From Seleniivibrio woodruffii (GTDB lineage: Bacteria > Chrysiogenota > Deferribacteres > Deferribacterales > Geovibrionaceae): a stretch of DNA of 64,000 nucleotides. A program made the position numbers and the translations under genes. The stretch is from NCBI RefSeq assembly GCF_004339245.1, contig NZ_SMGG01000003.1, forward strand, positions 337,106 to 401,105. Reading direction: 5' to 3'. A model generated the notes under the pieces. That model saw only the letters and a program-made list of their open reading frames with translations, had not been told where the DNA came from and did no database searches. This document shows, piece by piece, positions 1 through 8,737 of this stretch. Within the stretch, counting starts at the first letter, position 1. Every line of letters starts with the position of its first letter.

Positions 1-2268
1 GCTTCTGCCGAACTGCCTGTATTCGGCTATGTCCGACTGCCAGAGTTCTATCATATGTGTGATTTTCTGTGTCCAGTCCACATAGTCACTGGCCTTTGCA
101 ACAAAACCTGTGACCCTGTCCTCGATTATCTCTTTGGGGCCGCCCATGTCCGAGACTATGGCGGGAATGCCGCATGCCTGAGATTCCAGAACCACCATGC
201 CGAATGTGTCGGTGTTGCTGGGGAAAACGAAAAGATCGCTCTGAGCATACACCTCCGGCATTTTCGAATGGTCTATCTCGCCTTTGATGATAACGTTGTC
301 CCTGTCCTTTGCAAAGGCTTCCACTCTTGGGCTGTAGGGGCCGTGTCCTGCGACTATCAGGCGCAGTTTGTACTTCTGCTCCAGCTCGGCAAAGAGGTTC
401 AGCAGAAAGTCTATGTTTTTGTCCTGTGAAACCCTTCCGGCGTAGCACAGGGTGAATACGTTGTCAGGCCGCTTGTCCATGGGGCAGAACAGACGTGCGT
501 CTATCCCCCGCCTGAATACAGACATCTTGCTCCTGCTTATTCCTCTCTCTTCGAGATAGTCGAGGTACTGAGCTGATGTTGTCTTAAGCTCGGTGACGCT
601 GTCGAAGAACCATCTGGTATAGGCCTCAACAAGGTTCGTCAGCGAGTCGTTATGGGTTATCTCTTTTGCCTCTTTGGTGAAGTCGGTGTGGTAGATGCCT
701 GTGGATTTCACAGACAGAAGCCTCGAGGCGAGTAACCCTAAAAGTCCCACAGGACCGGGCGTAGATATAAAAACCTCGTCCGGTTCAAAGTCGTAAATTT
801 CTTCAAGGGCACGGATCACCGAGGGCACTTTGACGGTGATCTTTTCGTAATAAGGAAGTTTGAAGCTCTCTATGGGTGTCAGGTTTATGAGGTTCGGAGG
901 GAGCCGGTGGTCTATCTCCTCCGGAGTGAGGCACGAGACTATTTTCAGATCATACCCTTTGTCGTGCGCCATTTTGCCGATGGTGCGCAGGGTTACGGAT
1001 ACTCCGTTCAGATCGTTTATTGTGTCTGTGAACCAGAGTATGCGCTTGCGGACGGGTGCCGAGCCGTAGCTGTAGCTCTCGTTGAGGCTGTTGATTAGCT
1101 CCCTGTCCTTGTAGATCTGCCTGAAGGAGCTGAAAAACGGTATGGAGAGGAAGATTGCCGGAAGAGCGGTTGTAACACTCTTGTAGATATCCTCCATGTT
1201 TATCTTCTCTATGTCCTTTGACATGTGGGAGATCATCATGCGGAAATATTCATCGGATATATCAGAGGCCTTGTGGTAGACCTTGTTCAGCTTGCGCTCT
1301 ATGTTGATGAAAGACTCGTTCTGCATCTCCTGAATAAGCTCCACTATAAGCTGATTTATCCTGCCGGGATTCTTCATTTTGAAGCCTTTCAGCTTTATGC
1401 GCTCCATCAGGGAAGGTTTATCCTGTTCGAAGATGTAGTTGGTTATCTTGCTGAACAGGCCGCCCGCAAAATTAACGCTGTTCTTTGTGCGGCTGAAATC
1501 GTGGGCTATCTTGTAGACTGTGAAGGCGAGAGAGTGGAAATCGCTGTATCGCCCTGCATGGCGGCACTCTTTGTGGCGGATGCTTTCAACAAACTCCTGC
1601 GGGGTCGCCGCTCTGGCGAGGGTGTAGGTTTTGCCGAGGAAAAGCCCTGCGTGGTCGTCGGAACCTGCCGTGAAACCCTTTATCCATGGCGTATCGCTGA
1701 ACGGCTCTATGCGGTAGCGGGAATAGAGGTTCTCCAGTGCCAGCGGAGTGAGGCTTTCAAGTGTTTTGACCCATGTGGTGTTGTGGAGCTTGCCCCGTCC
1801 GCCGTTTATACCTTCGAACACGTCGAACAGAAGCATCAGCTTCTCAAGATGGTGCAGAGCCAGCCTGCCGTTAACGCTGAAAGTGGCGTGCGCCACCGAA
1901 TAGGCGAGTTTTTGTTCCTTTATGTAGTCGCGGAACTGATAAATGTCCCGTCTGACCTTCTGAATCATGTCGAACTGTTTATGGTTCAGGCCATAGACCA
2001 GAATGTGCATCTTGCAGCCGTCCTCAGGAAAATAGACTGTGGATTCCACTCCGGTAAAGGTGTCGTCAGGGTGCTTTTCGTTCAGGTAAACGGAGGCGTC
2101 TATGCAGTTATGGTCGGTCACCGTCACAAAGTCCATGCCCCTGCTCTTCGCAGTTTCATAGATGAAATCAGGTTCGGTGTATGATTCCGCCGTGCCGATG
2201 CGCTGGAGAAACCATTCTGAAGGATGTTTGGAGAATTTCGAGTGACAGTGTAAGTCCGCCTGAGCCAT
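1..2268 (-). CDS. PHP-domain phosphoesterase fused to GT4 glycosyltransferase (3' end cut by window)
   Basis: Reading leftwards from an ATG at 2268, preceded by AGAGGT, the frame stays open for 756 codons to base 1, so the C-terminus is missing. The N-terminal ~230 residues are a PHP metal-dependent phosphoesterase: HCHSKFS near residue 7, TDHNC near 54, VAHAT, and SDDHAG near 200, which together supply the family's metal ligands. After a linker, residues from ~405 form a family 4 glycosyltransferase with an N-terminal FTDTINDLNGVS loop and, near 690, the donor-site region FPSNTDTFGMVVLE that carries the family E-x7-E motif. The substrate cannot be read from sequence. It is divergent from an ornithine-lipid operon and shares its upstream region, so a role in glycolipid synthesis is a reasonable inference. 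An exopolysaccharide or glycoprotein enzyme is the alternative. Confidence 0.85.
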   Translation of the reverse strand, partial: MAQADLHCHSKFSKHPSEWFLQRIGTAESYTEPDFIYETAKSRGMDFVTVTDHNCIDASVYLNEKHPDDTFTGVESTVYFPEDGCKMHILVYGLNHKQFDMIQKVRRDIYQFRDYIKEQKLAYSVAHATFSVNGRLALHHLEKLMLLFDVFEGINGGRGKLHNTTWVKTLESLTPLALENLYSRYRIEPFSDTPWIKGFTAGSDDHAGLFLGKTYTLARAATPQEFVESIRHKECRHAGRYSDFHSLAFTVYKIAHDFSRTKNSVNFAGGLFSKITNYIFEQDKPSLMERIKLKGFKMKNPGRINQLIVELIQEMQNESFINIERKLNKVYHKASDISDEYFRMMISHMSKDIEKINMEDIYKSVTTALPAIFLSIPFFSSFRQIYKDRELINSLNESYSYGSAPVRKRILWFTDTINDLNGVSVTLRTIGKMAHDKGYDLKIVSCLTPEEIDHRLPPNLINLTPIESFKLPYYEKITVKVPSVIRALEEIYDFEPDEVFISTPGPVGLLGLLASRLLSVKSTGIYHTDFTKEAKEITHNDSLTNLVEAYTRWFFDSVTELKTTSAQYLDYLEERGISRSKMSVFRRGIDARLFCPMDKRPDNVFTLCYAGRVSQDKNIDFLLNLFAELEQKYKLRLIVAGHGPYSPRVEAFAKDRDNVIIKGEIDHSKMPEVYAQSDLFVFPSNTDTFGMVVLESQACGIPAIVSDMGGPKEIIEDRVTGFVAKASDYVDWTQKITHMIELWQSDIAEYRQFGRS

Positions 2269-2313
2269 GCGCCGACCTCTCATTAGATTATGGACTTACA
2301 TATACGCCCGCTC

Positions 2314-2351
2314 TGTCAGCTTAATTTCCGGATAATGTCATAATGTTGTCA
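2314..2351. promoter_or_regulatory. Putative PHO box array (PhoB-type TGTCA repeats, 11-bp period)
   Basis: TGTCA occurs at 2314, 2336 and 2347, exactly 22 and 11 bp apart, and a degenerate TTTCC sits at the skipped 11-bp position (2325). The last two units read TGTCATAATGT then TGTCATAAAT, close to the enterobacterial PHO box of two 11-bp direct repeats built on CTGTCAT. The array lies between divergent genes. A T/A-rich stretch at 2371-2385 (TATTTT, TATAGA) could supply a -10 for the rightward olsBA operon. Binding by PhoB is inferred; no phoB gene is in the window. Confidence 0.6.
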
Positions 2352-2453
2352 TAAATAGCTGCTGTTGTGAAATATTTTATAGATATATGGCAAAATTCGC
2401 ACCGTGTTCTGACATTTGGTTGCTACTTTTCATACATACCATGCGAGGTGTCT

Positions 2454-3326
2454 ATGAACGCTTTAAAAGAAAAATTCACCCCGAAAACAGTAAAAAAAGC
2501 CGTGGGAGCCATCAGGGATATATCAAAAACCCTGCGCTTCCGGATCCGCACCTACAGACCGAATACCGAATACTGCGAGGACAACAGCCGTTTCATCATC
2601 AAGATAATCGAGAACGGAACTGAGCTTATGGACGTTCTTCGCCTGCGCTATCAGGTGTTTTACGGCGAATATGCATACAAGACCGACCTCTACGGCATAG
2701 ATGTGGACAAATTTGACACTTTTTTCGACCATCTGGCCATAATTGACAAAAAAACAAACAAACCCATCGGCACATACAGGCTGAACAGCACAAGATTCAA
2801 CAAAAAATTCTATTCCGAAAAGGAATTTCATATGGATGAGATAAAGGATCTCTCCGGCCACAAGATTGAGCTGGGGCGTGCCTGCGTTCATCCTGACTAC
2901 CGCAACGGAGCAACCATCGCCGCCCTCTGGAAAGGGCTTGGTGCATATATGTCCATCACCGATTCCAGATATATGTTCGGCTGTTCGTCCATCCATTCTG
3001 ACGACACTTTTCAGACGGCACTCATACACCACTGGCTGAAAGGCAGCGGATATCTGCCTAAAGAGTACGACTGCATAACGCCCAGAGGCAAATTCAAGGA
3101 TAAAAAGTTCGAAAAGATGGTGGAGAAGACAGCTGACGAGCGTTTTGCCCCGTTCCGTGAGGCAGCGGTCAATCTTGTTCCTCCGCTTCTTCTGTCATAT
3201 ATGAAGGCGGGCGGGTTTGTTTGCGGAACTCCCGCATACGACAAGGCTTTCAAATGCTATGACTACCTGACGCTCATCGACCGCAAAAAGATGGATCCTT
3301 CGTTTGTCAGGAAGTTTTTGAAATAA
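2454..3326 (+). CDS. olsB: OlsB-family ornithine N-acyltransferase
   Basis: This 290-residue GNAT-fold protein matches the OlsB/hemolysin-like acyltransferase family. It has an N-terminal RLRYQVFYGEYAYK block (63-76) and the hallmark ELGRACVHPDYR block (139-150) followed by a conserved Trp-containing helix. OlsB transfers a 3-hydroxyacyl group from acyl-ACP to the alpha-amine of ornithine, making lyso-ornithine lipid at the inner membrane face. An in-frame upstream start at 2367 exists, but the ATG at 2454 has GCGAGGTG in front and fits the family N-terminus. The next gene is an acyltransferase one base downstream, the classical olsBA pair. Other acyl-accepting amino acids are possible, since relatives make glycine or glutamine lipids. 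Confidence 0.8.
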   Translation: MNALKEKFTPKTVKKAVGAIRDISKTLRFRIRTYRPNTEYCEDNSRFIIKIIENGTELMDVLRLRYQVFYGEYAYKTDLYGIDVDKFDTFFDHLAIIDKKTNKPIGTYRLNSTRFNKKFYSEKEFHMDEIKDLSGHKIELGRACVHPDYRNGATIAALWKGLGAYMSITDSRYMFGCSSIHSDDTFQTALIHHWLKGSGYLPKEYDCITPRGKFKDKKFEKMVEKTADERFAPFREAAVNLVPPLLLSYMKAGGFVCGTPAYDKAFKCYDYLTLIDRKKMDPSFVRKFLK

Positions 3327-3327
3327 C

Positions 3328-4092
3328 ATGTTCAGATTATACAGATTTGCGGGCGTTTTGTTCCTGTTCTGCGTATTTATCATCGGCGCCGTTGTCCTGC
3401 GGTTCTATGCAGTGACGGATGTCAACCGCCGCAGGGTGTCTGTCTGGTGGACATCGAAAATGTGCAGGGTGGGATGCCGTTTTCTGGGCATCAGGGTCAA
3501 AGCCGAAGGGCTTGGCAGTCTGCCCTCAGGCGGCAGTCTAATCGTTGCCAACCATATGTCCTATCTGGATATTATGGCTTTCGCATCCGTCAGGCGTGCG
3601 GTATTTATTTCGTCAGTCGAGATGGAGCAGACGTTTTTTCTGGGATTTCTTGCCCGTATCGGCGGCACATTTTTTGTGGAGCGGCGAAACGTCCGAAACA
3701 TAAAGGGTGAGCTGGACGGCATAACCGATATAATCGCTCAGGGGTTCGATGTGGTGCTGTTTCCGGAGGGAACATCAACCGACGGCTCAAAAATTCTGCC
3801 CTTCCGTTCATCCTTTCTGGCTGGAGCCACAGATACGGGAGCGGACGTTGTGCCCGCCTGCATACGCTACGAATACATAGACGGCGAACAGTTTTCGGCT
3901 GAGAACTGTGATTTTGTCTGCTGGTACGGCGATATGAGTTTTCTGCCTCACTTCGTGCGTTTTGCAGGCATCGGGAGAACAGAGGTCAGCATCAGGTATA
4001 TGGACGGCTTAAGCAGTCTGGAACTGGACAGAAAGCAGATAACCCGAATGGCGCATGAACTCATCACCACGCATTATTTTGCCGCATCCTGA
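3328..4092 (+). CDS. olsA: PlsC-family O-acyltransferase (OlsA-like)
   Basis: This 254-residue protein has an N-terminal transmembrane segment (about 8-27) and the PlsC signatures NHMSYLD (75-81, the H-x4-D acyl-transfer motif) and FPEGTS (145-150, phosphate/glycerol binding). Lyso-lipid acyltransferases of this family transfer an acyl chain to a free hydroxyl. Next to olsB, the expected acceptor is lyso-ornithine lipid. It could also or instead acylate lysophosphatidic acid. The ATG follows the olsB stop by one base, so the two genes are almost certainly cotranscribed and translationally coupled. Confidence 0.85.
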   Translation: MFRLYRFAGVLFLFCVFIIGAVVLRFYAVTDVNRRRVSVWWTSKMCRVGCRFLGIRVKAEGLGSLPSGGSLIVANHMSYLDIMAFASVRRAVFISSVEMEQTFFLGFLARIGGTFFVERRNVRNIKGELDGITDIIAQGFDVVLFPEGTSTDGSKILPFRSSFLAGATDTGADVVPACIRYEYIDGEQFSAENCDFVCWYGDMSFLPHFVRFAGIGRTEVSIRYMDGLSSLELDRKQITRMAHELITTHYFAAS

Positions 4093-6263: not shown

Positions 6264-6707
6264 CTAACCTTTCTGACACTTCGGGCAGATGCCGTAGAGG
6301 TTGAGAGAGTGATCAACCAGTTTATAGCCGTATTTGTTCACTATCCTGTTCTGGAGTGTTTCTATCTCTTCATCAAGAAATTCGATGTTTTCGCCGCATT
6401 TAACGCAGACAAGGTGGTCGTGGTGTTCTTTTGCCGTGTCGGGCTCATAGCGCACTGAACCCTCGCCAAAGTTAAGCTCCCTTGCTATTCCTGCTTCGGT
6501 GAGCAGTTTCATGGTGCGGTAGACGGTGGCATGGCCGATGGTAGGGTCGATCTTCTTAAGGATCTCATAAAGCTGTTCGGCGGTGACGTGCTTTTTCTGC
6601 TTGCAGAAAGTTTTCAAAATGAGTTCCCGCTGGGTGGTCATCCTCAGATTCTGCTCGCTCAGATATTTTGTGAAAATACCGTAAATATCCTTTTGGTTTA
6701 AAGTCAT
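6264..6707 (-). CDS. fur: Fur-family metal-responsive repressor
   Basis: This 147-residue protein has an N-terminal winged helix (about 10-85, with HATVYRTMKLL as recognition helix), the metal-site HHDH (95-98), and two zinc CxxC pairs, C101/C104 and C141/C144, as in Fur/PerR proteins. The start at ATG 6707 has TTGAGG about 8 bases upstream; an ATG six bases earlier would be too close. It is divergent from a FeoA-like gene whose promoter carries a Fur-box-like sequence, which favours iron (Fur) over peroxide (PerR) or zinc (Zur) sensing, though the family cannot be split with certainty by eye. Confidence 0.85.
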   Translation of the reverse strand: MTLNQKDIYGIFTKYLSEQNLRMTTQRELILKTFCKQKKHVTAEQLYEILKKIDPTIGHATVYRTMKLLTEAGIARELNFGEGSVRYEPDTAKEHHDHLVCVKCGENIEFLDEEIETLQNRIVNKYGYKLVDHSLNLYGICPKCQKG

Positions 6708-6828
6708 GACCATCCTCAACAGTTTTCTTTTGCTACCGAATAATAACCCGATAATTAACAATCTTCCATATCTTTTTATTGTCTGAAACAATTTTAGGTA
6801 TAAAAAAGTTGATTACGGGTACTGATTT

Positions 6829-6861
6829 GATATTGATAATGAATTTCATTAGCTGTATAGT
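6829..6861 (+). promoter_or_regulatory. Promoter overlapped by a Fur box
   Basis: The 19-mer GATATTGATAATGAATTTC (6829-6847) matches the classical Fur box GATAATGATAATCATTATC at 15 of 19 positions. It overlaps a promoter with TTGATA at 6833-6838, a 17-bp spacer, and TATAGT at 6856-6861. Repressor bound here would block RNA polymerase on the rightward FeoA-like gene. The site lies between fur and that gene, so fur could also be autoregulated. Confidence 0.7.
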
Positions 6862-6881
6862 CATGTTAAGGAGAAATGCCC

Positions 6882-7226
6882 GTGACAAACGCATGTTGTG
6901 AAAAAACAGCTGATACGGTTCAGCTTTCAATGATGAAAGCCGGCAGCAGAGGCGTCATTCAGAACCTTGTGATCGACTGCGAAGACAAGGAGCACTGCCG
7001 CTTTGCCCGCCGTCTGAAAGAGATGGGCATATACGAGGGCGCAAAGATCGAGGTTTCCGGCAACGACGGAGACGGAGAGATAATCGCCATCTGCGAAGGC
7101 ACAAAGATAGTTCTCGGCCGTGGAATGGCCGGAAAGATCCGTGTTCAGATGCATGCGGGTGCCCTTCTGGACGACACTCCTTTCGGCAGAATATGCCGCA
7201 AGTTCGGAATCGGCTGCCGCATCTGA
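6882..7226 (+). CDS. feoA: FeoA-domain protein (no FeoB partner adjacent)
   Basis: This ~114-residue protein has a Cys-containing N-terminal tail and a FeoA (SH3-like beta-barrel) domain from about residue 20: GSRGVIQNL, ARRLKEMGIYEGAKIEV, then GTKIVLGRGMAGKIRV. FeoA normally binds FeoB and supports ferrous iron uptake. No feoB follows; lnt is next. AAGGAG at 6868-6873 is only 2 bases from the ATG at 6876 but 8 bases from the GTG at 6882, so the GTG start is preferred. Given the Fur box upstream it is probably induced in iron shortage. It may pair with a FeoB elsewhere or have another role. Confidence 0.75.
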   Translation: MTNACCEKTADTVQLSMMKAGSRGVIQNLVIDCEDKEHCRFARRLKEMGIYEGAKIEVSGNDGDGEIIAICEGTKIVLGRGMAGKIRVQMHAGALLDDTPFGRICRKFGIGCRI

Positions 7227-7273
7227 TCTTTCTTTAGATTGCCGAAATCCCCTTCTTGTATTATCATCTCCCC

Positions 7274-8737
7274 ATGAAAAAACTACTGATTCCCTATCTT
7301 CTTGCCGCAGTTTCGGCATTTCTGCTCACACTTGCATCCCCCGGGATAGACCTGTGGTTTCTGGCTTATTTCGCTCTGGTTCCCGTTCTTATCGGTGCAT
7401 CCGGAAACAGGCGGCCATGGCTTGTCTTCTTTACTTTCGCTTTCCTTTATTACAGTTATAACCTTAGATGGGTCGAAACGTCCGTTTCCTACTTCGGCGG
7501 TGCGCCCTCTGTGGTCGGTTATCTTCTGGTGGGAGTCTTTTCTGCGGTTCTTGCCCTTTTCTGGGCGGGTTTCGGCTGGATATATGCCAGACGTCCCTCT
7601 GCAAGCATCCTTGCCGCAACGGTGATAGTTGCTCTTGAGGTGCTCAGGGCGAACGTTTTCACAGGGTTTCCCTGGCTGTATCTGGGACACACTCAGACGT
7701 CGTTTCTGCCTGCCTTTCAGGCGGCGGATCTGGGCGGAGAATATCTGATAACCCTTGTTGTTGCCTATTTCAACCTTGCCTTGGCGGCTTTTGTCAGAGA
7801 CAGGAACACAAATTCCATCTCCATTGCCTTTGTTCTGGTTGTGGCTGTTTTTTCATACGGCTTTCTGGCCAAAGGCAGGGAATATAACCACGAGATCCTT
7901 AAAACCAGAATAATCCAGCCCGCCTACAAACAGACGGACAAATGGAACAAGGATAAGGAGGCCGAGGTTATTCTGCAGGTGAGCGAGATGATACGCAACT
8001 CGGCTCCCCAGAATTATGATCTTCTGGTGCTGCCGGAGAGCGTGTATCCCAACATGATGAACAGGGATTTCGCCGGATACAGGCTTATGAGCATTGTCTC
8101 GGAGATAACTCCGGTTCTGGCGGGCGTGATACGCAACAACGGAAAGGTTGAGGACAGGGAATATTTTAACAGCGTCTATCTGTTTGACGGAAAAGACGTT
8201 CAGACATATGATAAAAGGAAACTGGTTCCCTTCGGCGAATATTTTCCGATGGGTTCGCTGTTTAAGCCTATAGATTATTATTTTTTCAAGGGTGCCGAAG
8301 ACTTTTCGGCGGGCAGAGAGCCCACGGTCTTCAGCCATGAAAAGATAAAGGCTGCGCCGATGGTCTGCTATGAGAGTGCATACAGTAATCTTGTCCGTCC
8401 GCAGATAGATGCGGGTGCGAACATGATAGCCGTTGTCACAAACGACAGCTGGTTTGGCGACACTCAGGGACCCTATCAGCATATGGCTGTTGACATTATG
8501 CGTGCGGTGGAGTACAGACGCAGTGTGGTAAGGGCTGCCCAGACCGGTGTGTCGGCCTGTATCGATCCTGATGGAACTATTCAGGCGGAGCTTGGTCTAA
8601 ACAAAGCGGGGTATCTTGACTGCGAAGTGAAGACCGTTACAGCAAAGAGCATATTTTCCGTAACAGGCTACCTGTGGCTTGTTCTGCTTATAGCGGGGAT
8701 ATTTATTTATGAACGCAGGCAACGTCTTATCAAATAA
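7274..8737 (+). CDS. lnt: Apolipoprotein N-acyltransferase
   Basis: This 487-residue inner-membrane enzyme adds the third acyl chain to lipoproteins, the last step before Lol export. The N-terminal ~200 residues hold multiple transmembrane helices, then a nitrilase-fold periplasmic domain follows. The catalytic triad is visible: Glu255 in LPESVYP, Lys314 in YDKRKLVPFGE and Cys365 in MVCYES, matching E. coli Glu267/Lys335/Cys387. The start is the first ATG of MKKLLIPYLL; no clear Shine-Dalgarno precedes it. Its presence supports a diderm host that matures triacylated lipoproteins. Confidence 0.95.
   Translation: MKKLLIPYLLAAVSAFLLTLASPGIDLWFLAYFALVPVLIGASGNRRPWLVFFTFAFLYYSYNLRWVETSVSYFGGAPSVVGYLLVGVFSAVLALFWAGFGWIYARRPSASILAATVIVALEVLRANVFTGFPWLYLGHTQTSFLPAFQAADLGGEYLITLVVAYFNLALAAFVRDRNTNSISIAFVLVVAVFSYGFLAKGREYNHEILKTRIIQPAYKQTDKWNKDKEAEVILQVSEMIRNSAPQNYDLLVLPESVYPNMMNRDFAGYRLMSIVSEITPVLAGVIRNNGKVEDREYFNSVYLFDGKDVQTYDKRKLVPFGEYFPMGSLFKPIDYYFFKGAEDFSAGREPTVFSHEKIKAAPMVCYESAYSNLVRPQIDAGANMIAVVTNDSWFGDTQGPYQHMAVDIMRAVEYRRSVVRAAQTGVSACIDPDGTIQAELGLNKAGYLDCEVKTVTAKSIFSVTGYLWLVLLIAGIFIYERRQRLIK

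Follow-up and report, generated by a model that had tools for sequence, protein, structure and literature searches.

That membrane lipids are replaced when phosphate runs short is well established for Proteobacteria and for some other bacteria. Low phosphate induces the formation of ornithine lipids in several bacteria (PMC12186959, PMC7937720). In Pseudomonas aeruginosa, the PlcP-Agt lipid renovation system (PA3219/PA3218/PA0842) operates under Pho-box control and combines a phosphoesterase with a lipid glycosyltransferase, alongside ornithine lipids (PMC8528852). The anaerobe Desulfovibrio alaskensis G20 replaces phospholipids with glycolipids and ornithine lipids when phosphate is limiting, and encodes an Agt (Dde_3613) and an OlsF (Dde_3661); Dde_3613 is named there only as an Agt homologue, and a PHP domain goes unmentioned (PMC5193443). 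The PHO box itself consists of tandem 11-nt direct repeats beside a promoter, with units such as CTGTCAT in E. coli and GTTCACC in Streptomyces (PMC4415409). Pho-controlled synthesis of ornithine lipid and of glycolipid is known. A PHP-glycosyltransferase fusion belonging to a Pho regulon was not found in the open-licence literature; within that literature, the predicted role of the PHP-GT4 fusion described here as a Pho-regulon enzyme of many phyla would be new.

The window analyzed here is a 64-kb stretch of DNA (G000:C3:337106-401105) from inside a 2.9 Mb genome (G000), to which Seleniivibrio and, after it, Denitrovibrio come nearest among named genera; positions are given in window numbering unless a G or L locus label is attached. 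Its left end carries a gene for the PHP-GT4 fusion and, diverging from it, an olsB-olsA pair:

1..2268, minus strand: PHP-GT4 gene, codons 1-756 of 794 (open reading frame; GT4 by Pfam, PHP by motifs and fold)
2299..2304, minus strand: predicted -10 of the PHP-GT4 promoter, TATATG (9 nt downstream of the last array unit; equal spacing peak in other phyla)
2314..2351, minus strand: Pho-type array facing PHP-GT4 (pstS-trained model; conservation in 12/12 family genomes)
2377..2414, plus strand: weaker Pho-type array facing olsB (pstS-trained model; conserved last unit)
2424..2429, plus strand: predicted -10 of the olsB promoter, TACTTT (9 nt downstream of the last array unit)
2454..3326, plus strand: olsB, ornithine N-acyltransferase-like, 290 aa (best NCBIfam name, below equivalog cut-off)
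3328..4092, plus strand: olsA, lyso-ornithine lipid acyltransferase-like, 254 aa (best NCBIfam name, below equivalog cut-off)

The PHP-GT4 gene starts at an ATG (2268-2266), yielding a protein that begins MAQADLHCHS, and is cut by the window edge; the complete gene occupies G000:C3:336989-339373. A radical SAM gene outside the window (G000:C3:335733-336989; L069:5734-6990) overlaps its end; relatives of this gene follow PHP-GT4 or lie near it within the family, elsewhere in the phylum and also in Desulfobacterota. On the other side, neither acyltransferase reaches its NCBIfam equivalog cut-off (124 versus 350 bits for OlsB, 121 versus 300 bits for OlsA), and we call the proteins OlsB-like and OlsA-like because of their best matches, their gene order and their GNAT and acyltransferase domains. 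The pair resembles the known OlsBA pathway in its olsB-olsA order and best family matches, but departs from it in these low scores and in lying divergent to, or clustered with, PHP-GT4. D. alaskensis G20, in turn, has OlsF in place of OlsBA. Further into the window (6264-8737), a Fur-family regulator diverges from a FeoA-like small gene that is followed by an apolipoprotein N-acyltransferase-like gene; all of these names except Fur were assigned by eye, and the content is ordinary.

Our preferred reading, to which we give a probability of roughly 0.6 from sequence and predicted structure, is that this locus comprises two divergent PhoB-activated promoters and that PHP-GT4 is a membrane-associated enzyme that cuts a phosphate ester and glycosylates a lipid. 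Under low phosphate, active PhoB would bind the TTNACA-type 11-bp units next to each -10 and, from there, recruit RNA polymerase; rightward, olsBA would be switched on to make ornithine lipid, and leftward, a PHP-GT4/radical SAM operon would be expressed. The phosphate ester cut by the PHP domain would, at our best guess, belong to a phospholipid head group or to a phosphatidate-type intermediate; the freed lipid would then receive a sugar from the GT4 domain to give a phosphate-free glycolipid, such that PHP-GT4 would stand in for the separate PlcP and Agt of Proteobacteria. We infer both the lipid substrate and this order of reactions; the analogy with PlcP plus Agt suggests that the PHP domain of the fused protein may free diacylglycerol for its GT4 partner. 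Of the functions considered for the locus, lipid remodelling fits best. A more specific proposal, in which PHP-GT4 is a widespread one-protein converter of phospholipid to glycolipid within the Pho regulon, with a phospholipase C-type PHP domain passing diacylglycerol to the GT4 domain, we hold tentatively and at somewhat worse than even odds.

PHP-GT4 is a 794-residue protein in which a PHP domain (about residues 1-240) is joined through a helical linker to a GT4 domain (about residues 405-794). The PHP domain falls under the Pfam cut-off (E=0.13), yet it has the metal-ligand motifs (HxH, DH, E, H, H, DxH) and the predicted fold of the PHP superfamily: in an alignment of 66 sequences, H7, H9, D52, H53, H127 and D205 never vary, and E75, H88, D204 and H206 are almost invariant. 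The GT4 domain is recognized both by Pfam (Glycos_transf_1) and by its fold, and the GT4 residues checked are likewise invariant or nearly so in the same 66 sequences. With these caveats (a sub-cut-off PHP domain, and OlsB and OlsA scores short of equivalog level), the identities that the initial annotation had given to olsBA and the fusion hold. The predicted model has a mean pLDDT of 88.6 (96.0 for the PHP part alone); Foldseek matches its PHP part to RNase AM and other PHP phosphoesterases, and its GT part to the GT4 enzymes BshA, MshA, PimB' and PimA. Folds and key motifs are held in common with RNase AM, TM0559 and the AMP/phosphate-bound enzyme of C. violaceum on the one hand, and with BshA, MshA, PimA and PimB' on the other; unlike any of these, PHP-GT4 carries both domains in one chain, connected by a hydrophobic helical linker. 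The joining helix, SALPGxFLSxPFFSS, is conserved, and the hydrophobic stretch (364-382), which the family retains, may sit in the membrane. PlcP-Agt differs in being a separate phospholipase, PlcP, working with Agt, whereas PHP-GT4 is a single predicted enzyme with a PHP-fold domain fused to GT4. A PHP domain acting on lipids would, as far as we know, be the first of its fold to do so.

A link between olsBA and PHP-GT4, as the initial annotation had proposed, is borne out by genome comparisons. The divergent layout is present in 12/12 genomes of a family set spanning four genera of the Seleniivibrio/Denitrovibrio group. In a genome from another class of the phylum (G012), olsB-olsA-PHP-GT4 form a single same-strand cluster, preceded at olsB by a three-unit array, TGACG-N6-TAACA-N6-TCACC-N9-TATGCT; in G014, olsB and PHP-GT4 lie apart, and each has such an array as judged by eye. 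PHP-GT4 occurs in 21 of the 51 genomes of the phylum, comprising 15/16 of those with OlsB versus 6/35 of the others (Fisher p = 2e-7 by genome, a value that ignores kinship, and 0.02 by genus). PHP-GT4 is also often found without olsBA, which counts against the preferred reading. OlsB/OlsA-like matches near PHP-GT4 in L131, L169, L183 and L184 proved weak or attributable to other acyltransferases, and were left out of these counts. In one family of the phylum (f7, G034-G048), all 15 genomes are without OlsB and without PHP-GT4, as if the two had been lost together.

The linkage and co-occurrence with ornithine-lipid genes, including the olsB-olsA-PHP-GT4 cluster, bear on the most serious competing account, which we consider unlikely though far from negligible. 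Here Pho control would hold, but PHP-GT4 would build a phosphate-free surface polysaccharide or glycan in place of a membrane glycolipid, with the PHP domain trimming a sugar phosphate or recycling a nucleotide by-product. Teichuronic acid in Bacillus is such a phosphate-free surface polysaccharide, and TuaC and EpsE stand next to lipid enzymes among the NCBIfam near-matches of PHP-GT4. Among solved PHP domains whose function is known, the nearest have nucleic acids or nucleotides as substrates rather than lipids, and an uncharacterized 573-aa protein or a GMC oxidoreductase lies downstream in several other phyla. Against our preferred reading, the top structural matches of the GT part, BshA and MshA, use soluble acceptors, and GT4 names do not fix the substrate. 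Besides the genomic association with olsBA, the hydrophobic linker helix argues against a glycan product, as does the best NCBIfam match of the protein, a phosphatidylglycerol glycosyltransferase, though this match is far below cut-off.

Having favored a lipid-glycosylating role for PHP-GT4, we turn to the promoters. The initial annotation had read TGTCA at 2314, 2336 and 2347, with a degenerate unit at 2325, as a tandem PHO box; the positions are correct, the degenerate unit being TTTCC (3/5 match) in the 11-bp register. Read on the minus strand, the units are TGACA (2347-2351), TGACA (2336-2340), GGAAA (2325-2329) and TGACA (2314-2318), and the PHP-GT4 strand runs TGACA-N6-TGACA-N6-GGAAA-N6-TGACA-N9-TATATG. 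A unit model built from family pstS promoters only, and used to rank four-unit arrays, places this array first of about 128,000 window positions on both strands (14.8 bits; next 11.4); three sites from genus g2 were anchored one unit downstream in training, and since the period is the same the ranking should hold. This array is conserved in 12/12 family genomes, and in each of them a TAT-type -10 follows after 9 nt. The 11-bp array, its first rank and its conservation all favor the PHO-box interpretation, and the loss of the repeats from orthologous loci that the initial annotation had named as grounds for rejecting it is not observed.

A second, weaker array of the same geometry, overlooked in the initial annotation, faces olsB, with units TTATA (2377-2381), TGGCA (2388-2392), GCACC (2399-2403) and TGACA (2410-2414), such that the olsB strand reads TTATA-N6-TGGCA-N6-GCACC-N6-TGACA-N9-TACTTT. 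The pstS-trained model ranks an olsB-facing array 4th among four-unit arrays of the window, and the last unit (TGACA/TAACA) and the -10 are kept in 12/12 family genomes. Two of its units, TTATA and GCACC, are poor, which counts against our preferred explanation. The intergenic region is predicted to be two divergent promoters rather than the one bidirectional switch first envisaged, as olsB has its own array and -10; the predicted box at 2314-2351 is that of the PHP-GT4 gene on the minus strand and not of olsBA. The accompanying proposal of Pho control over both genes finds support in their sequences.

A single shared box used in the E. coli sense (TGTCA on the plus strand), activating olsB and perhaps both genes, is quite improbable. 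Its appeal is that TGTCATAATGTTGTCA resembles the E. coli/Pseudomonas consensus CTGTCATNNNNCTGTCAT (consensus: PMC8528852). However, the 12 genomes have no clear -10-like element at a fixed distance from 2314-2351 towards olsB, and nearer to olsB lies an array of its own whose -10 follows after 9 nt. In G000, moreover, the promoters of pstS and phoU have the form with TNACA on the coding strand. The box described here has a coding-strand unit, TTNACA, that differs from the E. coli PHO box, and is followed by a -10 after 9 nt.

With two divergent promoters as the preferred architecture, the next issue is the regulator. G000 encodes phoU-phoB-phoR and pstSCAB, and so possesses a Pho system; its best match to TIGR02154 (PhoB) scores 219 bits, under the 296-bit cut-off, with the phoU-phoB-phoR cluster present. 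Upstream of that cluster lies TTACA-N6-TGACA-N6-TCACA-N6-TTACA-N9-TATTGT, and the same type of box, with a weaker -10, precedes pstS; across the 12 family genomes, pstS promoters read TGACA-N6-TNACA-N6-TNACA on the coding strand, the middle unit being weaker in genera g3 and g4. Several marks of a Pho-regulon member are found here: tandem 11-bp direct repeats beside a -10, a motif shared with the pst/pho genes of the same genome (pstS, phoU-phoB-phoR), and its conservation at orthologous loci (12/12 in the family, and relatives in other phyla). Pho control of PHP-GT4 and olsB is well supported by these promoter sequences, and PhoB would be the protein that binds the arrays. OmpR/PhoB-family regulators commonly use 11-bp-type tandem repeats, and several OmpR-type regulators are encoded in G000; nevertheless, that the arrays bind another member of this family, unrelated to phosphate, is very improbable given the same array and -10 spacing before phoU-phoB-phoR (and, with the weaker -10, before pstS) and the linkage of PHP-GT4 to pst/phoU in other phyla.

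Pho-type arrays also recur beyond the family. The genome collection contains 293 loci encoding a PHP-GT4 relative, of which 80 were kept; the contigs concerned carry the labels of more than 15 phyla (Spirochaetes, Cloacimonadota, KSB1, FCPU426, Desulfobacteria, Chitinivibrionales, Firestonebacteria, Acidobacteriota, Omnitrophota and others), the contig and MAG labels being taken as given. Because the search pattern for the family sites of both arrays contained the -10, it is the other phyla that provide an independent test of spacing. There, 11-bp TTNACA arrays precede PHP-GT4 and have a -10 placed 9 nt downstream: a spacing of 11 is best for four units in 59.5% of 72 PHP-GT4 upstream regions. 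The share is 18.5% among 222 upstream regions taken from other genes of those contigs, and 56% among 14 from pst/pho genes. In the 44 loci with clear arrays, 9 nt is the one distance at which the -10 score peaks. PstS, PstC/A or PhoU is encoded within 8.5 kb in 13/73 loci outside the family, where we estimate from operon and genome sizes that chance would give well under two; further neighbors include PhoB-like regulators, alkaline phosphatase and PPX/GppA genes. Other recurrent neighbors are a protein of about 570 aa with no Pfam match, directly after PHP-GT4 in seven loci from several phyla (L177:3781-5499; relatives in L132, L135, L146, L148, L162 and L169), a PhoU domain fused to a phosphotransferase-like (APH) domain (L121:906-2549; relatives in L120, L125 and L130), and a GMC-type oxidoreductase directly downstream (L138, L143, L149, L157, L163 and L173), with a short-chain dehydrogenase nearby or following in 5/6 cases.

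When up to 3 mismatches are allowed, the four-unit 11-bp pattern matches once in the 64-kb window and in none of 100 dinucleotide shuffles; the array at 2314-2351 is not expected by chance. Two perfect TGTCA units alone are expected 0.14 times per window and appear in 13/100 shuffles; genome-wide, two perfect units give 9 matches versus 1 for the reversed control pattern, and two-unit patterns alone are not enriched in G000 (16 versus 17 for the reversed control). Because two-unit patterns do not exceed the control, only arrays, geometry and conservation carry weight. A pattern search of the 2.9 Mb genome for three units plus a -10 (up to 2 mismatches) returned 15 matches versus 10 for the reversed control, indicating that many are chance; the few intergenic, right-strand matches include phoU-phoB-phoR, pstS, PHP-GT4 and an arsenate reductase-like gene, and those in L214, L223 and L224 were rejected as coding sequence of a large repeat protein. 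That the repeats are functionless accidents can be dismissed. In favor of this account, chance alone would yield a two-unit TGTCA match in roughly every seventh window; it is contradicted by conservation over four genera and by the arrays that precede PHP-GT4 relatives in other phyla. Elsewhere in the genomes, a perfect TGTCA pair lies upstream of an arginine decarboxylase (L003), and a Pho-type array stands 27 nt before an arsenate reductase-like gene (L215, G000:C9:9307-9344), from which phosphate and arsenate responses may be linked in G000.

PHP-GT4 probably helps many bacterial phyla to swap phospholipids for phosphate-free lipids. If PHP-GT4 is Pho-controlled in lineages that are anaerobic or uncultured (Spirochaetota, Cloacimonadota, Fibrobacterota, Desulfobacterota and others), this would suggest that lipid replacement is far more widespread, and the fused gene would serve as a genetic marker for it. 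PHP-GT4 would also be a candidate source of the phosphate-free glycolipids seen in anoxic waters, and the proposed role would give a concrete, testable function to a fused enzyme that has no name in curated families.
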